Below are positions 7,248 through 33,360 of a stretch of 34,158 nt of DNA, piece after piece. The stretch comes from Aminobacter carboxidus. GTDB lineage: Bacteria; Pseudomonadota; Alphaproteobacteria; Rhizobiales; Rhizobiaceae. The stretch is from assembly GCF_014863355.1 (NCBI RefSeq), contig NZ_JACZEP010000023.1, positions 1 to 34,158 on the forward strand, written 5' to 3'. The stretch's first letter is position 1; every line of letters begins with the position of its first letter. The position numbers and the translations under genes were made by a program. The notes beneath the pieces were generated by a model. The model was not told the DNA's origin, ran no database searches, and worked only from the letters and a program-made list of their open reading frames with translations.

Positions 7248-7469
7248 GACAAGATGTCGAGGCACAGCGCTACGGCAGCGGGCGACGAAAATTTCGCCTG
7301 CTCAAGCTTTTGATATCGAGGGGAAACCGTTCTTCCCGCCATCGCCGCGCCAACCTCTGCCTGCCATGGCGGGGATGCGGAAATGCGGACCTGACGAAAG
7401 CCGCAAACAGGCTTCCGGGCTGGAACCGGCATTCCTGTGGCACACCCCGACCACGGAATCTCACTCTGT

Positions 7470-7632
7470 CAGGCAGGTCTCCTGGCTCGTGGGTCGTAGC
7501 CTTCATCACCCGTCTTCCCGGCACGCATGCCAGTGACACAGGGGCGATCGGCTCACCGCTTACAGTTGCGGGTCAGCTCCGGTTTCACACCGGATTCCCT
7601 CTTAGCTTCCATCCGGAGATGGAAGACCATGA
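7470..7632 (-). promoter_or_regulatory. Cobalamin riboswitch
   Basis: Read on the minus strand, this has the cobalamin aptamer landmarks in order: GGTCTTCC with a pairing arm, AAGCTAAGAGGGAATCC, GGTGTGAAACCGG, GCTGACCCGCAACTGTAAGC, a CACTGGC element, CCGGGAAGACGGG, and the B12 box AGCCAGGAGACCTGCC near 7471-7487. It lies 285 nt upstream of the binding-protein start codon, so the operon 3210-7184 should be repressed when adenosylcobalamin is plentiful. The expression platform is not clear: I see neither a classic terminator nor a sequestered ribosome-binding site directly after the aptamer. Confidence 0.95.
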
Positions 7633-7639
7633 CGGCGGC

Positions 7640-7667
7640 AAACTATCGCTGGCCAAGGTAAAGTCAA
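7640..7667 (-). promoter_or_regulatory. Candidate promoter of the riboswitch transcript
   Basis: On the minus strand TTGACT (7662-7667) and TAGTTT (7640-7645) are separated by 16 nt and end just before the aptamer. Position and spacing fit a sigma-70-type promoter, but the -10 match is modest. Confidence 0.4.
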
Positions 7668-21778: not shown

Positions 21779-21820
21779 CTGAAATATATTTCAGTATATG
21801 AATTTTATTGACATATGCTG
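21779..21820. promoter_or_regulatory. Twin palindromic operators for the polyol operon
   Basis: A 16-bp perfect palindrome, CTGAAATATATTTCAG (21779-21794), is immediately followed by a second, imperfect one: CAGTATATG (21792-21800) and CATATGCTG (21812-21820), which pair with one mismatch across 11 nt. The second spans the -35 box. AT-rich symmetric sites overlapping the promoter fit repression by the SorC regulator encoded in the operon. Confidence 0.55.
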
Positions 21821-21942: not shown

Positions 21943-22974
21943 TTGCGCAAATTTTTGAGCACGCTCGCAATCGCGGCGGCTGCGTCGACCTGTTTGGCTT
22001 CGACCCAGGCGCTTGCCGAAACCGCCAACCCGTTCAAGTGCGAGCCGGGTGAAAAATACGTCATGAACGTCATGGTCTCGGGCGTCGAATACTGGTTCCC
22101 GGTCTATGAGATGTTCAAGCAGGCCGGCCAGCAGTTCGGCTGCGAGACCGAATATACCGGCACGCCCGAATATGACGTCAACAAGCAGATCGCCACCTTC
22201 GACCAGGCGCTGGCCCAGAAGCCGGCCGGCATCCTGGTCCATCCGATGAACTCCGATCCGTTCATCGAGCCGATCAACCGCGCCATCGAGCAGGGCACGG
22301 CGGTCGTCACCTTCGCCGCCGACTCACCCAACTCCAAGCGTGTTTCGTTCATCACCTCGGACAATCTGGCCGAAGGCACCTATGCCGCCGACGCCGTTGC
22401 CAAGGCGATGGACGGCAAGGGCGAATATGCCGTGCTGGAAAACCCCGGCCAGGACAACCACGACAAGCGCGTCTCGGCCTTCATCGCCCGCATGGAAGCC
22501 AAGTGGCCCGACATGAAGCTGGTCGGCCGCGCGGCTTCGAACCAGGATCCGACCAAGGCCTATCAGGCCGTGCTCTCGCTCGCCCAGGCACATCCCGACC
22601 TCGGCGCGGTGTTCATGCCGGAAGCCAACTCGGCCATCGGTGCGGCCCAGGCGGCCAAGGAAGGCGGCGGCAAGATCAAGGTCATGCTCGCCGACGTCAA
22701 CGCCAAGATCCTCGACATGATCAAGGCCGGCGAGATCTACGGCTCGGTCAACCCCAACCAGGGCATGCAGGGCTATATGGGCTTCATGCTGTTGTGGCTG
22801 GCCAAGCACCCCGACCTGATCGATCCGATGAACGACACCAAGCGTTCGGGTGCCAACGGCATGAGCGTGCCCTTCGTCGACAACGGCTTCTCCATCGTCA
22901 CGGCCGAAAACGCCGACGACTTCTATTGGGACAAGTATCTCAAGCGCCGCGGCACCAAGGGCATCGAGGAATAA
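21943..22974 (+). CDS. Sugar ABC transporter periplasmic binding protein
   Basis: A 343-aa protein with a signal peptide ([20 protein letters not shown], cleavage after QALA near 25) and a Peripla_BP_4 (ribose/rhamnose/AI-2 binding) fold: [60 protein letters not shown], and [21 protein letters not shown] prefer the TTG at 21943, four bases after GGGAGG; an ATG at 21919 is in frame but lacks a spaced ribosome-binding site. It is the first gene of the nine-gene plus-strand operon, and it supplies the extracellular sugar or polyol to the adjacent RbsA/RbsC-type components. The ligand is not identifiable from sequence. Confidence 0.9.
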
Positions 22975-23005
22975 GCTCGCGCCTCGCCTTCACGGCAGAA
23001 AACCC

Positions 23006-23029
23006 GGAAGGGGGCCTTGGTCCCCTTCC
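23006..23029 (+). terminator. Intercistronic hairpin after sugar-binding protein gene
   Basis: An 8-bp perfect stem (GGAAGGGG/CCCCTTCC) with an 8-nt loop, 32 bases after the binding-protein stop and followed by CCTTTG. Within an ABC operon this placement usually means partial termination or 3'-end stabilisation, giving excess binding protein. Confidence 0.55.
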
Positions 23030-23059
23030 CCTTTGCAGCGCCCATCGCAGGAGCATGGC

Positions 23060-24598
23060 GTGACCGAGACGCCCATTCTTGAAATACGCGGCCTGTCCAA
23101 GGCGTTCGGGCCGGTCAAGGCGCTCAGCGACGTGCGGTTCGAGCTCAAGCAAGGCGAGATCCACGCGCTGTGCGGCGAAAACGGTGCTGGCAAGTCGACG
23201 CTGATGAACATGATCGCCGGCGTGCTGCAGCCCGACCACGGCGAGATCCTGATCGACGGGGTGGCTGTTTCGATCCCCTCGCCGGCGGCAGCCCAGCGCC
23301 TCGGCATAGCCCTTGTCCACCAGGAGATCGCGCTCTGCCAGGACGCGACGGTCGCCGAAAACATCTACATGGCCGCGATCAACGGACGCCGCGCGCCGCT
23401 GATGAATTTCCACAGGCTTTATGCCGACGCGCAGAAGGTGATGGACCTGCTTGCGCCCATTCCGGTGCGCACCAGGGTCGCCGACCTTTCCATTTCCAAC
23501 CAGCAGCTCGTCGAGATCGCCAAGGCGCTGACGCTCGACTGCAAGGTGCTGATGCTCGACGAACCGACAGCGGCACTGACCGAAGGCGAAGCGCAAAGGC
23601 TGTTTGCCATCGTGCGTGGCCTTAAGGATCGCGGCATCTCGGTGGTCTATATCAGCCATCGCATGGCCGAGATCTTCTCTTTGTGCGACCGCGTCACCGT
23701 CTTCCGCGACGGCCATTACGTCGCCACCGATCCGATCGCCAAGAGCTCCCCCGACGACGTCGTCCGCAAGATGGTCGGCCGCGAGATCACCCAGCTTTAT
23801 CCCGACAAGCTGGCACCTGGGCAACCCGGCCGCCTTTTGCTCTCTGTCGAAAACCTGTCCGACGGCAAGCGCTTCGCAGATGTGAAACTGCAATTGCGCG
23901 CCGGCGAAATCCTCGGCATTGGCGGCCTGATCGGCGCTGGCCGCAGCGAGATCGCCCAGACCATCTGCGGCCTCAGGCCGGCAAGTTCTGGAACCGTCGA
24001 ACTCGACGGCACGGCAGTGCGCATCCGCAACTACAGCGATGCCGTCAAAGCCGGGTTGGTCTACCTCTCGGAAGACCGCAAGGGCTCGGGCGTATTCCTC
24101 GACATGCCGATTGCAGCCAACGTCTCCGCCCTTGACCTTGGCAAGCTGACCGGTTCGCTCGGCCTGCTCGACCGCAAGGCGGAAGATCGCCAGGCCACCG
24201 ACCTGACCAAGCGCCTCGGCGTGCGCATGGCCGGCATCGACGCAGCGGTGTCGACGCTGAGCGGCGGCAACCAGCAGAAGGTGGCGATCGCCAAGCAGCT
24301 GTCGATCGATCCCAAGGTCATCATCATGGACGAGCCGACGCGCGGCATCGACGTCGGCGCCAAGGTCGAGATTCATCGCCTGTTGCGCCAGCTTGCCGGC
24401 AAGGGCGTCGGCATCGTCGTCATCTCCTCGGAGCTGCCGGAACTTATCGGCCTGTGCGACCGCGTCATGGTGGTGCGCGAAGGCCGCATCGCCGGCGAGC
24501 TCGGCGCCGACGAACTCGGCGAAGAAGCCATCATCATGCTCGCCTCGGGCGTCCAGAATTCGTCAAATCAAGAAAAGCAGGCTCAAAATGTCGCCTAG
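23060..24598 (+). CDS. Sugar ABC transporter ATPase with two nucleotide-binding domains
   Basis: A 512-aa RbsA/XylG/LsrA-type subunit made of two fused ATPase domains. Domain 1: Walker A GENGAGKS (39-46), signature-like [15 protein letters not shown], Walker [12 protein letters not shown]. Domain 2: degenerate Walker [11 protein letters not shown] (about 291-300), signature [15 protein letters not shown] (near 399), Walker [13 protein letters not shown]. The degenerate second P-loop is normal for this family. GTG at 23060 is chosen because AGGAG lies six bases upstream; a TTG further out at 23033 is less likely. It energises import through the next gene's permease. Confidence 0.95.
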
Positions 24599-24617
24599 GG
24601 AAGCGGGAGAAACCCTG

Positions 24618-25619
24618 ATGCAGGCCGAGATCAAGGCACCCGAGACGGCCATCGAGAAACACACCAGGCGCATCAACTTCGCCCGCCTCGCCTCGATGCG
24701 CGAAGCCGGCCTGATCGTCATCATCCTGGCGCTGTGCATCGCCATGAGTTTTGCTTCGCCCCACTTCCTGACATGGGGCAATTTCCGCGCCATGCTGATG
24801 AGCTTCTCGATCGAGGGCATCGTCGTCGTCGGCATGACCATCCTGCTGATCGTCGGCGGCATCGACCTGTCGGTCGGCTCGGTGGTGTGTTTCTCGATGG
24901 TCGTTTCCGGCGCCTTGTTCCTCGCCGGGCTCGACCCGTGGACCGCGAGCCTGATCGGCATCGGCGTCAGCGCCCTGATCGGTGCCGCCATGGGCTTCTT
25001 CGTGACCGTGGTCGGCCTCAACCACTTCATCACCTCGCTTGCGGCGATGGTCATCGTGCGCGGCCTGTGCCTGGTCATCACCAAGGGCACGCCGCTGTCG
25101 CTGTTCACCTTGCCGCCGGCCTTCAAGGCCATCGGCCAGGGCAGCTTCCACGGCCTGCCTTATGTCATCATCATCTTCGTCGTCGTCGTTGCGATCTTCG
25201 ACTTCCTGCTGCGCCGCGCCACCGCCTTCCGCAAGGTGTTCTACACCGGCTCCAACGAGAAGGCGGCGCAGTTCTCCGGCATCAAGACCAAGCAGGTGAA
25301 GTTCTGGGTGACGGTGCTGTGCTCGACCCTCGCGGGCCTTGCCGGCGTCATCTATATGGCCCGCTTTGGTGCTGCGACCCCGACCTTCGGCGCCGGCATG
25401 GAGCTCAACATCATCGCCGCAGCGGTCATCGGCGGCGCCTCGCTCAATGGCGGCTCGGGCACCATCTTCGGCGCCATCCTGGGCATGGCGCTGCTTTCGG
25501 TGGTCACCAGTTCGCTGATCCTGCTCGACGTCTCGGTCTACTGGCAGGACATGATCAAGGGCTGCATCTTGCTTGCCGCCGTCTCAATCGACCACTTCCT
25601 GCACCGCAAGAAGTCCTGA
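24618..25619 (+). CDS. Sugar ABC transporter permease (RbsC/AraH type)
   Basis: A 333-aa polytopic membrane protein of the BPD_transp_2 family: IVVVGMTILLIVGGIDLSVG (the family hallmark), GFFVTVVGLNHFITSLAAMV, and FYTGSNEKAAQFSGIKTKQVK. GGGAG eight bases upstream supports the ATG at 24618; an ATG at 24588 overlaps the ATPase gene and adds ten unaligned residues. Only one permease gene is present, so the transporter presumably uses a homodimer, unlike the LsrC/LsrD pair of AI-2 importers. Confidence 0.93.
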   Translation: MQAEIKAPETAIEKHTRRINFARLASMREAGLIVIILALCIAMSFASPHFLTWGNFRAMLMSFSIEGIVVVGMTILLIVGGIDLSVGSVVCFSMVVSGALFLAGLDPWTASLIGIGVSALIGAAMGFFVTVVGLNHFITSLAAMVIVRGLCLVITKGTPLSLFTLPPAFKAIGQGSFHGLPYVIIIFVVVVAIFDFLLRRATAFRKVFYTGSNEKAAQFSGIKTKQVKFWVTVLCSTLAGLAGVIYMARFGAATPTFGAGMELNIIAAAVIGGASLNGGSGTIFGAILGMALLSVVTSSLILLDVSVYWQDMIKGCILLAAVSIDHFLHRKKS

Positions 25620-25639
25620 GCATCCGGACGAGACAGATC

Positions 25640-26620
25640 ATGGCACCCCCAAACACCCGCGACGACATATCGACCGTCCGCCAGATGCACCAGGCGCTCG
25701 TGCTGCATTATGTCGAAGGCAAGACCCAGTCCGACATCGCCAGGGAACTCGGCATCTCGCACGCCACCGTCAACCGGTTGATCAAGCGCGGCCACCAGCT
25801 CGGCCTCGTCGAGATCAAGATCAAGTCGCCGATCGACCATCTCGTCGACATCGAGACGCGCCTGGTCGCGCTTGGCGGCATCGAACGCGCCGTCGTCGTA
25901 CCATCGGTATCGGACAATCCGCAGACAGCTTTGCAGCGTGTCGGCGAAGCAGCGGCCAGCCTGCTGCTCGACACCATCAAGGACGGCGACACCATCTCGA
26001 TCACCGGCGGCAAGGGCGTCAGCGCGCTTGTCGCCGGGTTGAAGCCCGGCCGCCGCTACGATGTCGAGGTCATTCCGGCCACCGGTCTCGTCCAGGGCAA
26101 GCACTACACCGACGTCAACCACGTCGCCTCACTAATGGCCGACAAGCTCGGCGGCCGCGCCTACCAGGTCCATGCGCCGCTGTTTGCCGACACGCCGGAG
26201 CAGCGCGAGATGCTGATGGGCGTACGCTCCGTCGCCGACGTCTTCCGCAAGGCGCGCGAGGCCGATGTCGCCGTTGTCGGCATCGGTTCAATCCTGACCG
26301 ACGATTCCAGCTATTACGACCTGCATCCGTCATCGAGCGCCGACCGCCGCGCCATCGAGCAGTCGGGCGCGTCGGGCGAATTGCTCGCCCACCTCATCGA
26401 CCACCGCGGCAAGCTGTGCAGCTACGCGCTCAACCGCTCACTGGTGTCGCTGACATTGGACGAATTCGCCACCATCCCGCGCTCGATCGGCATCGCCAGC
26501 GGGCCGAGCAAGGCAGCGCCGATCCTCAGCGCCATGCGCGGCAACCATCTCGACACCATCGTCACCGACGAGGCGACAAGCCTCCAGATTCTCGACCTTG
26601 CCGAACAGGAGGCAGCATGA
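25640..26620 (+). CDS. SorC-family transcriptional regulator with sugar-binding domain
   Basis: A 326-aa regulator. The N-terminal helix-turn-helix (about 24-51, EGKTQSDIARELGISHATVN) is followed by a SorC/DeoR-type sugar-phosphate binding domain (PF04198-like): GDTISITGGKGVSALVAGLK, TGLVQGKHYTDVNHVASLMA, VAVVGIGSILTDDSSYYDL. EryD of the brucella/rhizobia erythritol locus and LsrR of the AI-2 system belong to this family and sense a phosphorylated substrate. It starts 20 bp after the permease stop and overlaps the next gene by four bases, so it is regulated with its targets. The palindromes at 21779-21820 are likely operators. Confidence 0.92.
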   Translation: MAPPNTRDDISTVRQMHQALVLHYVEGKTQSDIARELGISHATVNRLIKRGHQLGLVEIKIKSPIDHLVDIETRLVALGGIERAVVVPSVSDNPQTALQRVGEAAASLLLDTIKDGDTISITGGKGVSALVAGLKPGRRYDVEVIPATGLVQGKHYTDVNHVASLMADKLGGRAYQVHAPLFADTPEQREMLMGVRSVADVFRKAREADVAVVGIGSILTDDSSYYDLHPSSSADRRAIEQSGASGELLAHLIDHRGKLCSYALNRSLVSLTLDEFATIPRSIGIASGPSKAAPILSAMRGNHLDTIVTDEATSLQILDLAEQEAA

Positions 26621-27612
26621 GCTCCCGACAAATCCAGCGCCGCATCGGCCGCTCCGACGTCTCCGCATCGGCCGTGGGCCTCGGCACCTGGGCGATAGGC
26701 GGCTGGATGTGGGGCGGTACCGACGAGCAGGCCTCGATCCGCGCCATCGAAGCCTCCATCGAGGCTGGCATCAGCCTGATCGACACCGCGCCCGCCTATG
26801 GCCTCGGCCGCAGCGAAGAGATTGTCGGCAAGGCGATCAAAGGCAAGCGCGACAAGGTCGTCATCGCCACAAAATGCGGCCTCAACTGGCATTCCGGCAA
26901 GGGCAACCACTTCTTCGACCAGGACGGCAAGCCGGTGCACCGCTATCTCGGCGCCGACGGCATCGTCCATGAAATCGAGCAGAGCCTGCGCCGGCTCGGC
27001 ACCGATTACATCGACCTCTACATCACCCATTGGCAGGACCCGACGACGCCGATCGCTGAGACCATGGCGACGCTGGAAAAGCTCAAGGCATCGGGCAAGA
27101 TCCGCGCCATCGGCGCATCCAATGTCAGCACTGAAGACCTCGAGCACTATGTCGCCGCAGGCCAGATCGACGCGATCCAGGAACGCTATTCGATGATCGA
27201 CCGCGAGATCGAACAGACCCTGCTGCCGATCACCCAGCGCAACGATGTCGCCACGCTCAGCTACTCCTCGCTGGCACTCGGCCTGCTGACCGGGATGATC
27301 GATCCCTCGCGCGAATTCACCGGCGACGACCAGCGCAAGGACAATCCGCGCTTCTCCCCCGCCAACCGGCAGAAGGTGGCGAAGCTCAGGCAGGCCATCG
27401 CGCCGGTCGCTGCACAGCACAAGGCGTCGATGGCCCAGATCGTCATCGCCTGGACGCTGGCGCAGCCGGGCATCACCTTCGGCCTGTGCGGCGCGCGCAC
27501 TGCCGAACAGGCGCTCGACAATGCCCGGGCCGGCGAAATCACGCTTGGCGCGGACGAACTGGCAATCATCGACACGGCAATCGCCACGCATCTCACCTCA
27601 ATGGATGCCTGA
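26617..27612 (+). CDS. Aldo/keto reductase
   Basis: A 331-aa TIM-barrel NAD(P)H-dependent reductase. The catalytic tetrad is visible as Asp56 and Tyr61 in LIDTAPAYG, Lys86 in VVIATKCG, and His138 in LYITHWQDP; IRAIGASNVS and the C-terminal GLCGARTAEQALDN (cofactor phosphate region) are also typical. It resembles the AKR11/IolS-like group. Its ATG overlaps the SorC stop (ATGA), with AGGAGG seven bases upstream. In this operon it could reduce an aldehyde produced by the aldolase, or interconvert polyol and sugar forms of the substrate before phosphorylation. Confidence 0.92.
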   Translation: MSSRQIQRRIGRSDVSASAVGLGTWAIGGWMWGGTDEQASIRAIEASIEAGISLIDTAPAYGLGRSEEIVGKAIKGKRDKVVIATKCGLNWHSGKGNHFFDQDGKPVHRYLGADGIVHEIEQSLRRLGTDYIDLYITHWQDPTTPIAETMATLEKLKASGKIRAIGASNVSTEDLEHYVAAGQIDAIQERYSMIDREIEQTLLPITQRNDVATLSYSSLALGLLTGMIDPSREFTGDDQRKDNPRFSPANRQKVAKLRQAIAPVAAQHKASMAQIVIAWTLAQPGITFGLCGARTAEQALDNARAGEITLGADELAIIDTAIATHLTSMDA

Positions 27613-27631
27613 GCGAAAAGGCACAGCCCAC

Positions 27632-29344
27632 ATGAACCGCAACGACACACTCGCCGCTCTGCGAGAGCGGCCCGATATTGCCGTGCTTGTCATAGGCGGC
27701 GGCATCAACGGCATCTCGGTGTTCCGCGAGCTCGCCCTGCAAGGCGTCGACGTCTTGCTGGTCGACAAGGCCGACTATTGCTCAGGCGCCAGTGCCGCCC
27801 TGTCGCGCATGGTGCATGGTGGCCTGCGCTATCTCGAAAACGGCGAGTTCAAGCTGGTGCGGGAATCGCTGGTCGAGCGCGACCGGTTGTTGAAGAACGC
27901 CCCGCACTATGTCGCGCCGCTGCCAACGACGGTGCCGATCTTCGACACCTTCTCCGGCATCGCCAATGGCGCGGTCCGTTTCCTCGGCCTGACGCGCAAT
28001 CCCAGCCGCCGTGGCGCGCTGGTGATTAAGGCCGGCCTGACCATGTACGACCTGTTCACGGCAACACGGCGATTGATGCCCAAGCACCGCTTCCGCGGCC
28101 GTGCCGAAACCCTCAAGGCCTGGCCTGATATCAATCCCGATATCCGCAGCTCCGCCACCTATTACGACGCCTGGGTCAGCCGTCCCGAGCGCCTTGGCCT
28201 CGAAATGCTGTTCGACGCCATGGCATCGAGCCCGACCGCGCGCGCCCTGAACTACGCCACGGTCGCCGCATCTAACGAAGGCCTCGCCCTCACCGACAGC
28301 TTGAGCGGCGAGAAGTTGCCGCTCCGCCCGAAGCTGATCATCAACGCCACCGGCGGCTGGATCGACCTGACCAACAAGGCCATTGGCGCTTCGGCACCGC
28401 GCATGATGGGCGGCACCAAGGGGTCGCACCTGATCGTCGACAATGCCGAGCTTTACGACGCGCTTGGCGGCCACATGGTCTATTACGAAAACGAGGATGG
28501 CCGCATCTGCATCCTGTTTCCTTATCTCGGCAAGGTGCTGATCGGCTCGACCGACATCCGCGTCGACGACCCGGACCAGGTCCGCTGCGACGACGATGAG
28601 CGCAGCTACATCCTGCAGTCACTGGCTTTCGTGTTCCCCTCGATCGCCATAACCGACAATGAGATCGTCTTCCGCTTCTCCGGCGTGCGGCCCCTGCCCG
28701 CCAGCGACGACAGCTTCACCGGGCGCATTCCACGCGATCATTTCTGCGAGTTTGTCGAGCCGAGCGACGGCCTGCCGGCAACTCTGTGCATGATCGGCGG
28801 CAAGTGGACGACCTTCCGCTCCTTTGGCGAGATGGCCGCCGACATGGCGCTGCAACGGCTTGGCCTCAGGCGCAGATCAGGCACCGAAGATCTCGCCATT
28901 GGCGGTGGCCGCGACTTTCCTGCCGACCCGGACAAGTGGTGTGTCGCCTTTGGCGCCAGGCACGTCGTGCCGGTCGAACGCGCAAAAGTCCTGCTTGAGC
29001 GCTACGGCACGTCGGCGGTGGATTTCGCGACCGACCTCGCCTCCGACCCGATGCTGGCGGGATCGACCTACTCGACCGGCGAGATCCGCCTGATTGTCGC
29101 GCGCGAGCAGGTCGAATGCCTCGCCGACATTTTCCTGCGCCGCACCACCATCGCCATTTCGGGCGGCCTCAGCCTTGCCCTTATCGACGCCGTGCTTGGC
29201 ATCCTCACCGAGCACAAGGGTTGGAGCACGGCCCAGGCCGCTGCCGAACGCACGGCCTTCCTCGCTCTGCTCGCCCACCAGCATGGCATCGCCATCTCAG
29301 ATCTCTCCCAGACGAACGACAAAAGGAGCGCCCTATGCGCCTGA
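27632..29344 (+). CDS. FAD-dependent polyol-phosphate dehydrogenase (GlpD/EryB-like)
   Basis: A 570-aa flavoprotein of the glycerol-3-phosphate dehydrogenase family. It has the FAD-binding VLVIGGGINGISVFREL (18-34) and the GlpD signature SRMVHGGLRYLENGEFKLVR ESLVERDRLL (from about 58), plus GTKGSHLIVD and MIGGKWTTFRSFGE in the second half and a C-terminal helical domain. GlpD enzymes oxidise C2 of a polyol phosphate and pass electrons to quinone at the membrane. EryB of erythritol loci is a paralogue. The neighbouring FGGY kinase and aldolase suggest its substrate is the kinase product, yielding a ketose-1-phosphate. The ATG at 27632 follows an AAAAGG-type site. Confidence 0.9.
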   Translation: MNRNDTLAALRERPDIAVLVIGGGINGISVFRELALQGVDVLLVDKADYCSGASAALSRMVHGGLRYLENGEFKLVRESLVERDRLLKNAPHYVAPLPTTVPIFDTFSGIANGAVRFLGLTRNPSRRGALVIKAGLTMYDLFTATRRLMPKHRFRGRAETLKAWPDINPDIRSSATYYDAWVSRPERLGLEMLFDAMASSPTARALNYATVAASNEGLALTDSLSGEKLPLRPKLIINATGGWIDLTNKAIGASAPRMMGGTKGSHLIVDNAELYDALGGHMVYYENEDGRICILFPYLGKVLIGSTDIRVDDPDQVRCDDDERSYILQSLAFVFPSIAITDNEIVFRFSGVRPLPASDDSFTGRIPRDHFCEFVEPSDGLPATLCMIGGKWTTFRSFGEMAADMALQRLGLRRRSGTEDLAIGGGRDFPADPDKWCVAFGARHVVPVERAKVLLERYGTSAVDFATDLASDPMLAGSTYSTGEIRLIVAREQVECLADIFLRRTTIAISGGLSLALIDAVLGILTEHKGWSTAQAAAERTAFLALLAHQHGIAISDLSQTNDKRSALCA

Positions 29345-30177
29345 ACCACAAAGTCCGCATGAACCGGCTCTTCACCGGCGGCCGCTGCCTCGACGTCGCC
29401 ATCGATCACGGAGTCTGCAACGAACCGAGCTTCCTCAACGGGCTCGAGGACATGGCAGGCGTGGTCGCGCAGCTGGTCAAGGCCGGTCCCGACGCCATCC
29501 AGATGAACTACGGCCAGGCCGACCTGCTGCAGGCGGTGCCGGGCAAGGACAAGCCGGCACTGGTCATGCGCATCGACATGGGCAACCCCTACAACAAGAT
29601 CCGCCACCGGGCGATGTGGGCGCTGCTGCAGAACGAGGCAGAGCCGTTGGTTGGCGCCCTCGAGATGGATGCGGCCTGCGTCGTGGTCAATCTGTTCATG
29701 CTGCCCGACGAGCCGGACCTGTTTCGGCAATGCGTCCAGAACATCGCCCGTGTCCGCGCCGACTGCGAAAAATACGGCCTGCCGCTGATGATCGAGCCGC
29801 TGGCCATGTTGCCGGTCGACCAGAGCGGCGGCTACATGGTCGACGGCGATGCCGAAAAGATCGTCACCCTGACCCGGCTCGCCCGCGAGATGGGTGCCGA
29901 CATCATCAAGGCCGACCCGACCACCGATCCCAACGATTTCCACCGCGTCGTCGAGGCGGCGCGCTGCCCGGTGCTGGTGCGCGGCGGCGGCAAGGAAGAC
30001 CTGCGCGCCGTGTTCGACAAGTCGGCGGCCCTGATGGCGCAGGGCGCGATGGGGATGGTCTATGGCCGCAATATCTACCAGCATGCCAATCCGAGCGCTG
30101 TCGTGCGCGGACTGATGGCGATCATCCACGACGGTGCGGATGGTGCCACGGCCTTCGACCTGTACAAGCAGGCCTGA
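29335..30177 (+). CDS. Class I aldolase, DhnA/LsrF (DeoC/LacD) family
   Basis: A 280-aa TIM-barrel protein. CLDVAIDHGV (18-27) is the DHG motif of DhnA-type fructose-bisphosphate aldolases and LsrF. The probable Schiff-base lysine is Lys192 in GADIIKADP; the phosphate-binding segment is CPVLVRGGGKED (211-222), followed by MGMVYGRNIYQHANP, very like LsrF's GVDMGRNIFQ. It likely cleaves a ketose phosphate to DHAP and an aldehyde, or acts as a thiolase as LsrF does. AAAGGAG precedes the ATG, which overlaps the dehydrogenase gene by ten bases. Confidence 0.87.
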   Translation: MRLNHKVRMNRLFTGGRCLDVAIDHGVCNEPSFLNGLEDMAGVVAQLVKAGPDAIQMNYGQADLLQAVPGKDKPALVMRIDMGNPYNKIRHRAMWALLQNEAEPLVGALEMDAACVVVNLFMLPDEPDLFRQCVQNIARVRADCEKYGLPLMIEPLAMLPVDQSGGYMVDGDAEKIVTLTRLAREMGADIIKADPTTDPNDFHRVVEAARCPVLVRGGGKEDLRAVFDKSAALMAQGAMGMVYGRNIYQHANPSAVVRGLMAIIHDGADGATAFDLYKQA

Positions 30178-30199
30178 GCAGCGGCATCGGGAGGAGCCA

Positions 30200-31747
30200 A
30201 TGGGCACGTATATTCTCGGCCTCGATGCCGGCAACACCGTCATCAAGGCGATCATCTTCGACACGCAAGGGCGCGAACTGGCGCTCGCCGCCTGCGACGG
30301 CCACTCGTCCATGCCCAAGCCTGGCCATGTCGAGCGCGACCTCGACGAGCTCTGGCGCAACGCGGTCGCCGTCATCGGCCAGTGCATCGACAAGGCCGGC
30401 ATCGACGCAAGCGAGATCGTCGCCGTCGGCTGCGCCGGGCATGGCAACGGCCTCTACGCGCTCGACCGCCACGGTGCGCCACTTGTCGGCATCCAGTCGC
30501 TCGACACCCGCGCTGTCGGCATCGTCGACGAATGGGCCGAGCAGAATGTCGGCGACCGCACCTATGTCCATTGCCTGCAAAAGCCGTGGGCGGCACAGAC
30601 GCCGACCCTGCTCGCCTGGCTCAAGCGCCATGCGCCGGAGCTGTTCAGCCGCATCGGCACGGTGTTCCTGTGCAAGGATTTTGTCGTCAACAGGCTGACC
30701 GGCGCGCGTTCGACCGACACCACTGACATGTCGGGCTGCGGCCTGCTGCAGATGCCCGGCAGGCGCTACGATCAAGACTTGCTCGCCGCCTATGGTCTCG
30801 GCGACTGCATGGCGCTTTTGCCGCCGGTGCTGGAATCGGCCGACATTGCCGGCCATGTCACATCTGATGTCGCGGCCCTGACCGGGCTGCGCGCCGGCAC
30901 ACCCGTCGTCGCCGGCCTGTTCGACGTCGTCGCCAGCGCCCTCGGCTCCGGCGTCACCCGCACCGGAGCGGCATCGATCATCGCCGGCACCTGGAGCGTC
31001 AACCAGGTCATCACCGACGAGCCGATCCGCGATCCCTCTATCTTCATGCTCTCGACCTTCGATCCCAGCCGCTATCTGGCGATCGAATCGAGCGCGACGT
31101 CGGCTGCCAATCTCGAATGGATCGTCCGCGAGTTCCTCGAACATGGCCATGACACTGCCGCCTCGCCGTTCGAATTGTGCAGCGAGCTCGTCGCCTCGGT
31201 CGATCCCGACGGTGACATCCCGATCTACCACCCCTTCCTTTACGGCTCGCAGCAGAACGGCCACGCCCGCGCCGGCTTTTACGGCATCGCCGGCTGGCAC
31301 AGCCGGGCGCATTTGCTACGCGCGCTGTTTGAGGGCGTCGCTTTCGAACACAAGCGCCATGTCGAGACCTTGCGCAAGGCGGGAGCCGTCTTTGACCAGG
31401 TCGTCTTGTCTGGCGGCGGCTCGCGCAGCGCCATCTGGCCGCAGATCTTCGCCGACGTGCTCGGCGTTCCCGTCACCGTGGCGCGCAGCCGCGAGACCGG
31501 CGCGCTCGGTGCGGCGATTGCCGCGGCTACCTGCGTCGGCATCTTTGCGGACTACAGTACCGGCGCAGCCGCAATGACGGCGGCAGCGCGCCACTATACG
31601 CCCAATGGCGCGATTGCCCCTGTCTATTCCAGGCGCTATCGCCTGTATGGCGAGATCAACCAGGCGATGACGCCGATCTGGCAGCGCATCGCCCCCGAAC
31701 AGGCATCTGGGCAGGCAACTGAGAAGTCTAAGCAGGCACCGCAGTGA
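30200..31747 (+). CDS. FGGY-family carbohydrate kinase (EryA/LyxK-like)
   Basis: A 515-aa kinase with the two actin-like domains of the FGGY family: phosphate-binding [20 protein letters not shown] (4-23), [17 protein letters not shown], and the catalytic-base region [19 protein letters not shown] with Asp about 242, then [20 protein letters not shown] near the C terminus. The wording is closer to E. coli L-xylulose kinase and rhizobial erythritol kinase than to LsrK or GlpK. It would phosphorylate the imported polyol or ketose with ATP. GGGAGGAG precedes the ATG at 30200, 22 bp after the aldolase stop. Confidence 0.91.
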
Positions 31748-33360
31748 CCGAAGCATCCTCATCATTTGGCGACTACGACTACGTCATCGTTGGTGCCGGC
31801 TCCGCCGGATGCGTGCTCGCCAACCGGCTGTCCGCCGACCCGCGTACGCGCGTGCTCCTGCTCGAAGCCGGCGGTTCCGACCGCTACCACTGGGTCAACA
31901 TCCCGATCGGCTACCTCTACTGCATGGGCAATCCGCGCACCGACTGGCTGATGAAGACCGAGCCGGAAGCCGGCCTCAATGGCCGCAGCCTCAACTATCC
32001 CCGCGGCAAGGTTCTGGGCGGCTGCTCGTCGATCAACGGCATGATCTACATGCGCGGCCAGGCCGCCGACTATGACGGCTGGCGCCAGGCCGGCAATGCC
32101 GGCTGGGGCTGGGACGACGTGTTGCCCTATTTCCTCAAGTCGGAGGACTATCACGGCGGCAACAGCGCTATGCATGGTTCTGGCGGCGAATGGCGCATCG
32201 AAAAGCAGCGCCTGTCCTGGCCGATCCTCGATGCCTTCCGCGACGCCGCCGAGGAGCTTGGCATCCCGCGCACCGACGATTTCAACACCGGCACCAATGA
32301 AGGCTCCGGCTATTTCGAGGTCAACCAGCGAGGCGGCGTGCGCTGGAACACCTCCAAGGCCTTCCTGCGCGGCATCAGCGATCGCAACAATTTGCGTGTC
32401 GTCACAGGTGCTGAGACCGAACGGCTTGAATTGGACGGCCGCCGCGTCACCGGCCTGGTCTTCCGCAAGGACGGGCAGTTGCATCGGGTCAAGGCTGGCC
32501 AGACCATCCTCGCCGCCGGCGCCATCAACTCGCCGAAGATTCTCGAGCTTTCCGGCATCGGCCAGCCGGAGCTGCTTTCACGCCTCGGCATCGAAGTCCG
32601 CCATGCGCTGGCAGGCGTCGGCGAAAACCTGCAGGACCATCTGCAGATTCGCACCGTATTCAAGGTGACGGGTGCAGCGACACTCAACCAGCGCTACCAC
32701 AATCTGTTCAGCCGCGCCGCCATGGGTCTCGAATATGCGTTGAAGCGCAGCGGCCCGCTGTCGATGGCGCCGAGCCAGCTCGGCATCTTCGCCAAGAGCG
32801 ATCCGCGCCTCGCAACGCCCGATCTCGAATATCATGTTCAGCCGCTCAGCACCGACCGGCTCGGCGAGCCGCTGCACCGCTTTCCCGCTGTCACCGTGTC
32901 GGTCTGCAACCTGCGCCCGCAAAGCCGAGGCACGGTGCACATGGCATCGGTCAACGCACGCGAGGCGGCGAAGATCCAGCCGAACTACCTCTCCACCGAA
33001 GGCGACCGCGACACGGCCATTGCCTCGCTGCGCCATGTCCGCCGCCTGATGAAAGCAAAAGCCGTGGCGCGTTTTGCGCCCGAGGAGATGTTGCCCGGCA
33101 CGCAATATGACAGCGACGAAGACCTGCTGCGCAAGGCCGGCGACATCGGCACGACGATCTTCCACCCTGTCGGCACCTGCAAGATGGGTTCGGATGCCAT
33201 GGCCGTGGTCGACGACCGGCTGCGCGTGCATGGCCTCGATGGCCTGCGTGTCGTCGATGCCTCGATCATGCCGACGATCGTCTCCGGCAACACCAACTCA
33301 CCCGTCATCATGATCGCCGAAAAGGCGGCCGAAATGATCCTCGGGGATCGCCGCGCCTAG
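31744..33360 (+). CDS. GMC-family FAD oxidoreductase
   Basis: A 538-aa glucose-methanol-choline oxidoreductase: FAD-binding [20 protein letters not shown] (12-31), LLLEAGGSD, the GMC signature [40 protein letters not shown], and the C-terminal [10 protein letters not shown] with the active His (about 474) and [11 protein letters not shown]. Such enzymes oxidise alcohols to aldehydes. It has no signal peptide. A GTG start overlaps the kinase stop by four bases (GTGA), so it closes the operon. It may oxidise the polyol directly, offering a second entry route beside the kinase. Its stop codon lies inside repeat copy B. Confidence 0.92.

Follow-up and report, generated by a model that had tools for sequence, protein, structure and literature searches.

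The window analysed here, 34,158 nucleotides of Aminobacter carboxidus (contig NZ_JACZEP010000023.1, positions 1 to 34,158; contig C16 of a 6.29 Mb genome), carries an operon of nine genes on its plus strand. The constant core of this operon, an FGGY kinase, a GlpD-like dehydrogenase and a class I aldolase of the DhnA fold, suggests a polyol pathway that would end in cleavage to dihydroxyacetone phosphate (DHAP) and an aldehyde. All nine open reading frames were confirmed at the coordinates given by an earlier sequence-only reading of this DNA, and the domain families that it had named were found with Pfam and NCBIfam. The interval that it had drawn, 21943-33360, holds all nine genes but leaves out an operator-like region upstream (21780-21813). 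The features are as follows.

21780-21793: operator-like palindrome TGAAATATATTTCA, perfect, 14 bp; putative site of the SorC-family regulator; invariant in 13/13 aligned upstream regions
21799-21813, plus strand: second operator-like half site, a conserved block overlapping a TTGACA -35-like hexamer (21808-21813)
21943-22974, plus strand: sugar-type periplasmic binding protein (SBP), CUT2 type; TTG start; PF13407 (6.3e-54)
23060-24598, plus strand: sugar ABC transporter ATPase; GTG start; PF00005 in two stretches
24588 or 24618 (start ambiguous) to 25619, plus strand: sugar ABC permease; PF02653 (6.2e-36)
25640-26620, plus strand: SorC-family regulator; PF04198 (9.7e-59)
26617-27612, plus strand: aldo/keto reductase (AKR), YdjG-like; PF00248
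27632-29344, plus strand: GlpD-like FAD dehydrogenase, clade I; PF01266 and PF16901 (DAO, DAO_C)
29335-30177, plus strand: DhnA-fold class I aldolase; PF01791 (2.7e-57)
30200-31747, plus strand: FGGY kinase; PF00370 and PF02782
31744-33360, plus strand: GMC oxidoreductase, an optional member; GTG start; PF00732 and PF05199

The nine genes are one operon. The intergenic gap 3' of the SBP gene is 85 bp, and at the other joints neighbouring genes either overlap by 4-11 bp or lie about 20 bp apart. The TTG start of the SBP gene and its GGGAGG are present in 13 of 13 aligned rows; these rows, like the aligned upstream regions, are the window and 12 of the 80 relatives described below. The closest named relative of the aldolase in a search of genome contigs is from Aminobacter anthyllidis (99% identity). 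None of the nine proteins passed an NCBIfam cutoff among the matches listed (for the ATPase, the best 25 of 194). A hairpin of 8 pairs between the SBP and ATPase genes (23006-23029, listed on the minus strand) may allow more of the SBP to be made; hairpin-type sites are not enriched here relative to shuffled sequence (11 versus 7.5, standard deviation 2.8).

The near set of loci that we compared consists of the best 80 of 486 relatives from the genome-contig search with the aldolase as query. These loci were chosen through the aldolase and are closely related, so their counts are not independent. Gene order, counted from plus-strand matches only, was the same in 80/80 wherever the genes were present, which argues that the arrangement is not due to chance. 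The first eight genes stand in order in 79 of the 80 (the exception, L005, is truncated by a contig end), the GMC gene is found in 65, and all nine genes in 64. Sinorhizobium meliloti 1021 carries the same stretch, SBP through kinase, on pSymB (516976-526873), and on pRL12 of Rhizobium johnstonii the operon is RL_RS36690-36730, under generic product names. All but one of the 10 genomes of the genus have the aldolase, and several of another genus in the family lack it.

More distant loci were surveyed with the aldolase as query (249 genomes from the order and 398 from the phylum) and with the dehydrogenase as query (385 genomes from the class and 248 from the order). The resulting divergent set comprises 23 loci with an aldolase of at least 66% identity, of which the aldolase query gave 15 (L094-L106, L114 and L115) and the dehydrogenase query 8 (L122-L129). 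Aldolase and GlpD-like dehydrogenase (at least 38% identity) are both present in 23/23, and so is an FGGY kinase (at least 45% identical in 22, 30% in L115). Counted by query, dehydrogenase and kinase accompany the aldolase in 15/15 loci, and aldolase and kinase accompany the dehydrogenase in 8/8. The other parts vary: SorC regulator in 21 loci, AKR in 19, one-permease transporter in 18 and GMC gene in 13. Four loci (L095, L098, L100 and L102) have a different importer with two permeases, 28-39% identical to the window ATPase and permease, and no match to the window SBP was found in them. In L115, which lies outside the class, the kinase, GlpD-like and GntR genes are divergent from those for the transporter, AKR and aldolase; the GntR gene stands in place of SorC, and the kinase is distant in sequence. 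Because the trio is constant while other parts vary, we take kinase, GlpD-like dehydrogenase and aldolase, and not the transporter, to define the system. The genome-neighbourhood comparison suggested by the sequence-only reading thus finds the trio conserved, in 23/23 divergent loci and, from the side of the dehydrogenase, in 26/26 (below). Our neighbour lists rest mainly on tblastn; the gene caller misses genes (SorC and AKR in a test on the window).

The dehydrogenases fall into two clades. Clade I (at least 49% identity) counts 18 members from the order, this genome's own among them, and 8 more from the class; it adjoins the aldolase and the kinase in 26 of 26 cases, with kinase adjacency for G209, G244, G187 and G023 checked separately within that count. 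Clade II (40-47% identity) has an FGGY kinase nearby in 19/19 loci, and lies beside this aldolase in 0/19 in the stretches fetched, some of which end at contig ends. Its neighbours include at least one of EryA-D in 12 of the 19, TpiB or RpiB in 8, and either in 14; L131 and L137 have RpiB or TpiB only, without EryA-D, and L137 also has a DeoR match. Clade II therefore appears as a related kinase-dehydrogenase cassette with isomerase-type neighbours in place of the aldolase. Among the other five loci, L142, L143 and L145 adjoin a transporter 45-80% identical to the probable glycerol importer of this genome, and the kinase-GlpD pair there is perhaps a glpK/glpD replacement. In R. johnstonii the clade II pair is KIN2-GlpD2, encoded by RL_RS33910 and RL_RS33905 (pRL12 203836-207154; L121:3837-7155) beside erythritol genes that we take to be eryABCD, the gene names being our assumption. 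This pair may handle another small polyol; we found no description of it in the literature searched.

A tree of the GlpD family has a 100/100 branch with clades I and II on one side (36 rows, including two duplicates) and EryB with GlpD on the other (7 rows). EryB groups with E. coli GlpD, and the window enzyme groups with the second, ery-associated dehydrogenase (100/100 branch). Identities follow the same division: 44% between the window enzyme and GlpD2, 29% between it and EryB, and 51% between EryB and this genome's GlpD. Rows L146_eryB, L147_eryB, L135_eryA and L138_eryA in the trees are second-clade duplicates, and both eryB duplicates were left out of the residue count. In that count, six positions of E. 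coli GlpD that we take to bind the substrate and its phosphate (R54, Y55, H233, R317, R332 and K354) are unchanged in 19/19 clade I dehydrogenases; the R54 position is lysine in 11/15 clade II rows. Of the earlier label 'GlpD/EryB-like', the first half is borne out by the GlpD domains and the six retained residues, but the second is not, and the tree branch led us to reject an EryB-like dehydrogenase. By sequence, we propose that the enzyme is a polyol-phosphate dehydrogenase.

KIN2 and GlpD2 are the nearest relatives of the window kinase and dehydrogenase among the reference proteins compared, the kinase being 39% identical to KIN2. The best known reference for the kinase is LyxK (35%, 304 bits), with LsrK (28%, 176 bits) and EryA (29%, 166 bits) behind it. 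In the kinase tree, one group (99/97) holds kinases I and II together with LyxK and the L115 kinase; EryA is its sister clade (92/81), and LsrK falls elsewhere. AraB, RhaB, the L115 kinase, FucK, LsrK and LyxK are long branches, and their own positions in this tree are therefore unsure. Against the NCBIfam model for LsrK the kinase scores 222.7 bits versus a cutoff of 528. Its description as EryA/LyxK-like agrees with these results.

The aldolase is aligned here in 109 rows, 105 of them distinct and mostly from close relatives. Two residues are invariant in all 109: the Schiff-base lysine K192, which aligns with K203 of LsrF and K193 of YihT, and E154, which aligns with E159 of YihT, where LsrF has V173 and FbaB W199. 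Among ten aldolases at middle distance, one is E. coli LsrF itself and the other nine have the glutamate. In the predicted structure (mean pLDDT 81.2; residues 84-102 poorly modelled), E154 lies on strand 151-160 and K192 on strand 190-193. YihT is annotated in its database record as cleaving a ketose-1-phosphate. The alignment thus points to a DhnA fold with a YihT-like catalytic pair, and we propose a ketose-1-phosphate aldolase that would release DHAP. The enzyme had been called an LsrF/DhnA-type aldolase, of which the DhnA fold stands, while the likeness to LsrF goes no further than the fold, LsrF having valine where this family and YihT have glutamate.

It is conceivable that the enzyme instead carries out LsrF-like thiolysis or a synthase reaction, so that the product would be an acyl-CoA or a condensed compound and not DHAP plus an aldehyde. 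By fold the enzyme is closest to ADH synthase, LsrF and archaeal fructose-bisphosphate aldolase, with YihT lower down, and the top NCBIfam scores are for ADH synthase models, below cutoff. We nevertheless consider this very improbable: YihT shares the invariant E154, LsrF and FbaB have Val and Trp there, the operon has no LsrG, and LsrK falls outside the group of this kinase. The LsrF model itself (NF006081) gives 102.5 bits versus a cutoff of 297. The Glu154 column, the kinase tree and the lack of LsrG in the operon led us to reject an LsrF-like thiolase in particular. In L107-L111 and L116, the aldolase family is 49-51% identical and has the same Lys and Glu; the neighbours in L108 and L110 include mannitol-dehydrogenase-like and Gfo/Idh genes, perhaps another aldolytic sugar pathway. 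Family members at 42-52% identity were also tried as a guide to the substrate, but they have other neighbours (two loci scanned), which do not fix it.

For the operon as a whole, we think it rather probable, though well short of certain, that it serves SorC-controlled polyol catabolism in the order kinase, GlpD-like oxidation, aldolase, with DHAP and an aldehyde as products. The CUT2-type ABC transporter would import a small polyol, or else a sugar for later reduction to one, and the LyxK-like FGGY kinase would phosphorylate a terminal hydroxyl. The GlpD-like FAD enzyme would oxidise the neighbouring carbon to give a ketose-1-phosphate, passing electrons to quinone, and the class I aldolase would cleave this product through a Schiff base to DHAP and a shorter aldehyde, which would be formaldehyde from a C4 substrate, glycolaldehyde from C5 and glyceraldehyde from C6. 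The YdjG-like reductase (41% identity to E. coli YdjG; 286 bits on NF049922, YdjG, versus a cutoff of 550), where present, would handle this aldehyde and is probably its reductase, and the GMC enzyme would be an optional extra. The operon would probably be under SorC control. We favour this order of steps because it uses every constant part.

Alternatively, oxidation may come first, by the GMC enzyme, the AKR or another dehydrogenase, with the ketose then phosphorylated at C1 by the LyxK-like kinase and cleaved by the aldolase, and with the GlpD-like enzyme on a side branch. LyxK, the nearest reference kinase, is annotated as an L-xylulose kinase and so acts on a ketose, and by annotation E. 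coli yihT/yihV and ydjH/ydjI each combine a ketose-1-phosphate aldolase with a sugar kinase. The GlpD-like enzyme is, however, constant in 23/23 loci, the AKR and GMC genes are not, and the phosphate-site residues are kept, all of which makes an oxidise-first route unlikely in our view.

Several points count against the kinase-first pathway. The operon is patchily distributed (of 249 genomes from the order, 19 have an aldolase of at least 71% identity), and AKR is missing from 4/23 and GMC from 10/23 divergent loci. Among the closest solved relatives of the aldolase are an ADH synthase and also LsrF, which carries a thiolase annotation, so that chemistry other than DHAP release is possible. 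In the L141-L145 branch, a related kinase-GlpD pair adjoins a glycerol-type transporter in L142, L143 and L145, so longer polyols are not necessarily the substrates of such a pair. The roles that we presume for the LsrF and YihT residues and for the six GlpD residues are also our own assumption.

The substrate is perhaps a C5 compound; this first guess has a single ground, that the nearest known kinase, LyxK, is a pentulose kinase. The best solved match of the SBP is named an arabinose binding protein, followed by other sugar binders. These relatives bind varied sugars, and in four loci the transporter is another one, so the SBP does not reveal the substrate and we set it aside as a guide. A glycerol operon is unlikely: this genome has a separate probable glpD-transporter-glpK operon on contig C1, and glycerol is therefore not the obvious substrate. 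For C4 compounds there is a chemical precedent, since DHAP and formaldehyde are interconverted with erythrulose-1-phosphate by DHAP-dependent aldolases (EC 4.1.2.2) in the synthetic EuMP cycle, according to the portion of PMC10733421 consulted, but there it is a side activity run in the opposite direction. A natural erythrulose-1-phosphate route, in which a dedicated aldolase splits threitol or erythritol to DHAP and formaldehyde, is a speculative idea to which we give little credence. If true, it would give the EC 4.1.2.2 side activity an enzyme of its own and link polyol use to rhizobial one-carbon metabolism.

The SorC regulator is 30% identical to R. johnstonii EryD and 27% to E. coli LsrR. 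With one mismatch allowed, the palindrome upstream of the operon has no second match anywhere in the 6.29 Mb genome (reversed-pattern control, 0); its chance expectation in the window is 0.01 at up to two mismatches. Across 97 loci, the best match upstream of the SBP gene has no mismatch in 53, one in 24, two in 8, three in 11 and six in one; it is thus kept with at most two mismatches in 85/97, comprising 72/79 near and 13/18 divergent loci. The locus with six mismatches is L115, which lacks this SorC; L126, also without SorC, has no such SBP gene in its stretch and falls outside the 97. The palindrome is retained with one mismatch in L095 and with two in L102, both of which have the other transporter. 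L098 and L100 have SorC yet do not keep it (best match, 4 mismatches), which speaks against a strict rule that SorC and the site go together. The exact palindrome with the second-half-site motif occurs once each in 4/248 genomes of the order, where it precedes the aldolase by about 7.5-7.7 kb, the spacing seen in the window, and most carriers of the operon lack this exact form. A generic sigma-70 scan found no full promoter in the region upstream of the operon. The simplest reading is that the palindrome is probably a dedicated local operator for SorC, for which we regard it as a candidate.

Elsewhere in the window, a cobalamin riboswitch (7456-7646, minus strand, 129.5 bits) precedes minus-strand genes for a binding protein, a FecCD permease and an ABC ATPase, with a luciferase-like monooxygenase gene next. 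This cluster is probably a vitamin B12 or cobinamide importer.

Open-access full-text literature yielded no description of the operon; most subscription journals were beyond the scope of that search. It may be that the operon has been characterised under other names in the literature beyond it, and its frequency in model rhizobia lends this some weight, but product names are generic in the records viewed and we put the chance of such a report as low. SMb20504, an entry in a list in the consulted part of PMC12542648, is a protein that we ourselves suspect to be the S. meliloti binding protein of the operon. What we describe is a strongly conserved combination of familiar enzyme families, found described nowhere in the literature searched, in a catabolic operon widespread among symbionts (Sinorhizobium meliloti, Rhizobium and Mesorhizobium). 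If the proposed pathway is true, these genes are probably misannotated, and predictably so, where they carry the labels 'glycerol-3-phosphate dehydrogenase/oxidase' and 'class I fructose-bisphosphate aldolase'. The genome-contig search gave 486 relatives of the aldolase. The trio and the operator-like site make the operon directly testable in laboratory strains.

The operon had been read as a mix of erythritol-locus and lsr parts. That description fits the SorC regulator, the FGGY kinase, the GlpD-family dehydrogenase and the DhnA fold, but not the supposed affinity to EryB, nor one to LsrF beyond the fold. The lsr (autoinducer-2) operon likewise combines an ABC importer, a SorC-family regulator, an FGGY kinase and a DhnA-fold enzyme of the aldolase family. 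It differs in having two permeases and LsrG and no GlpD, its kinase belongs to another branch, and LsrF lacks the Glu154 equivalent; Pfam and NCBIfam found neither LsrG nor a second permease among our nine genes, which include one permease. The yih (sulfoquinovose) and ydj operons of E. coli also encode a kinase, a ketose-1-phosphate aldolase and a reductase together. YihT shares Lys and Glu with the window aldolase, and YdjG is related to the AKR, but neither operon has a GlpD-like gene; the yih and ydj kinases belong to other families and the YdjI aldolase is class II.

The ery locus of Brucella and Rhizobium (EryABCD, EryH/TpiB and EryI/RpiB) shares with the operon an ABC importer, a SorC-family regulator, an FGGY kinase and a GlpD-family dehydrogenase. 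It ends, however, in isomerases and erythrose-4-phosphate, and its kinase and dehydrogenase belong to other clades, the window kinase lying outside the EryA clade, its sister (92/81), at 29% identity. None of the isomerases EryC, TpiB/EryH and RpiB/EryI was found among the nine genes with Pfam and NCBIfam, as the sequence-only reading had stated. The KIN2-GlpD2 type of pair differs from the operon in its neighbours, with ery genes or ery-type isomerases nearby in 14/19 loci and this aldolase in 0/19. EryB makes erythrulose-1-phosphate, and R. johnstonii pRL12 carries both the ery locus and the aldolase operon. The alpha-proteobacterial erythritol route passes through erythrulose-1-phosphate in the account given in the consulted part of PMC12780249. 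If our proposal is true, rhizobia finish similar kinase-dehydrogenase chemistry in two ways, with an isomerase in the one case and with an aldolase in the other.

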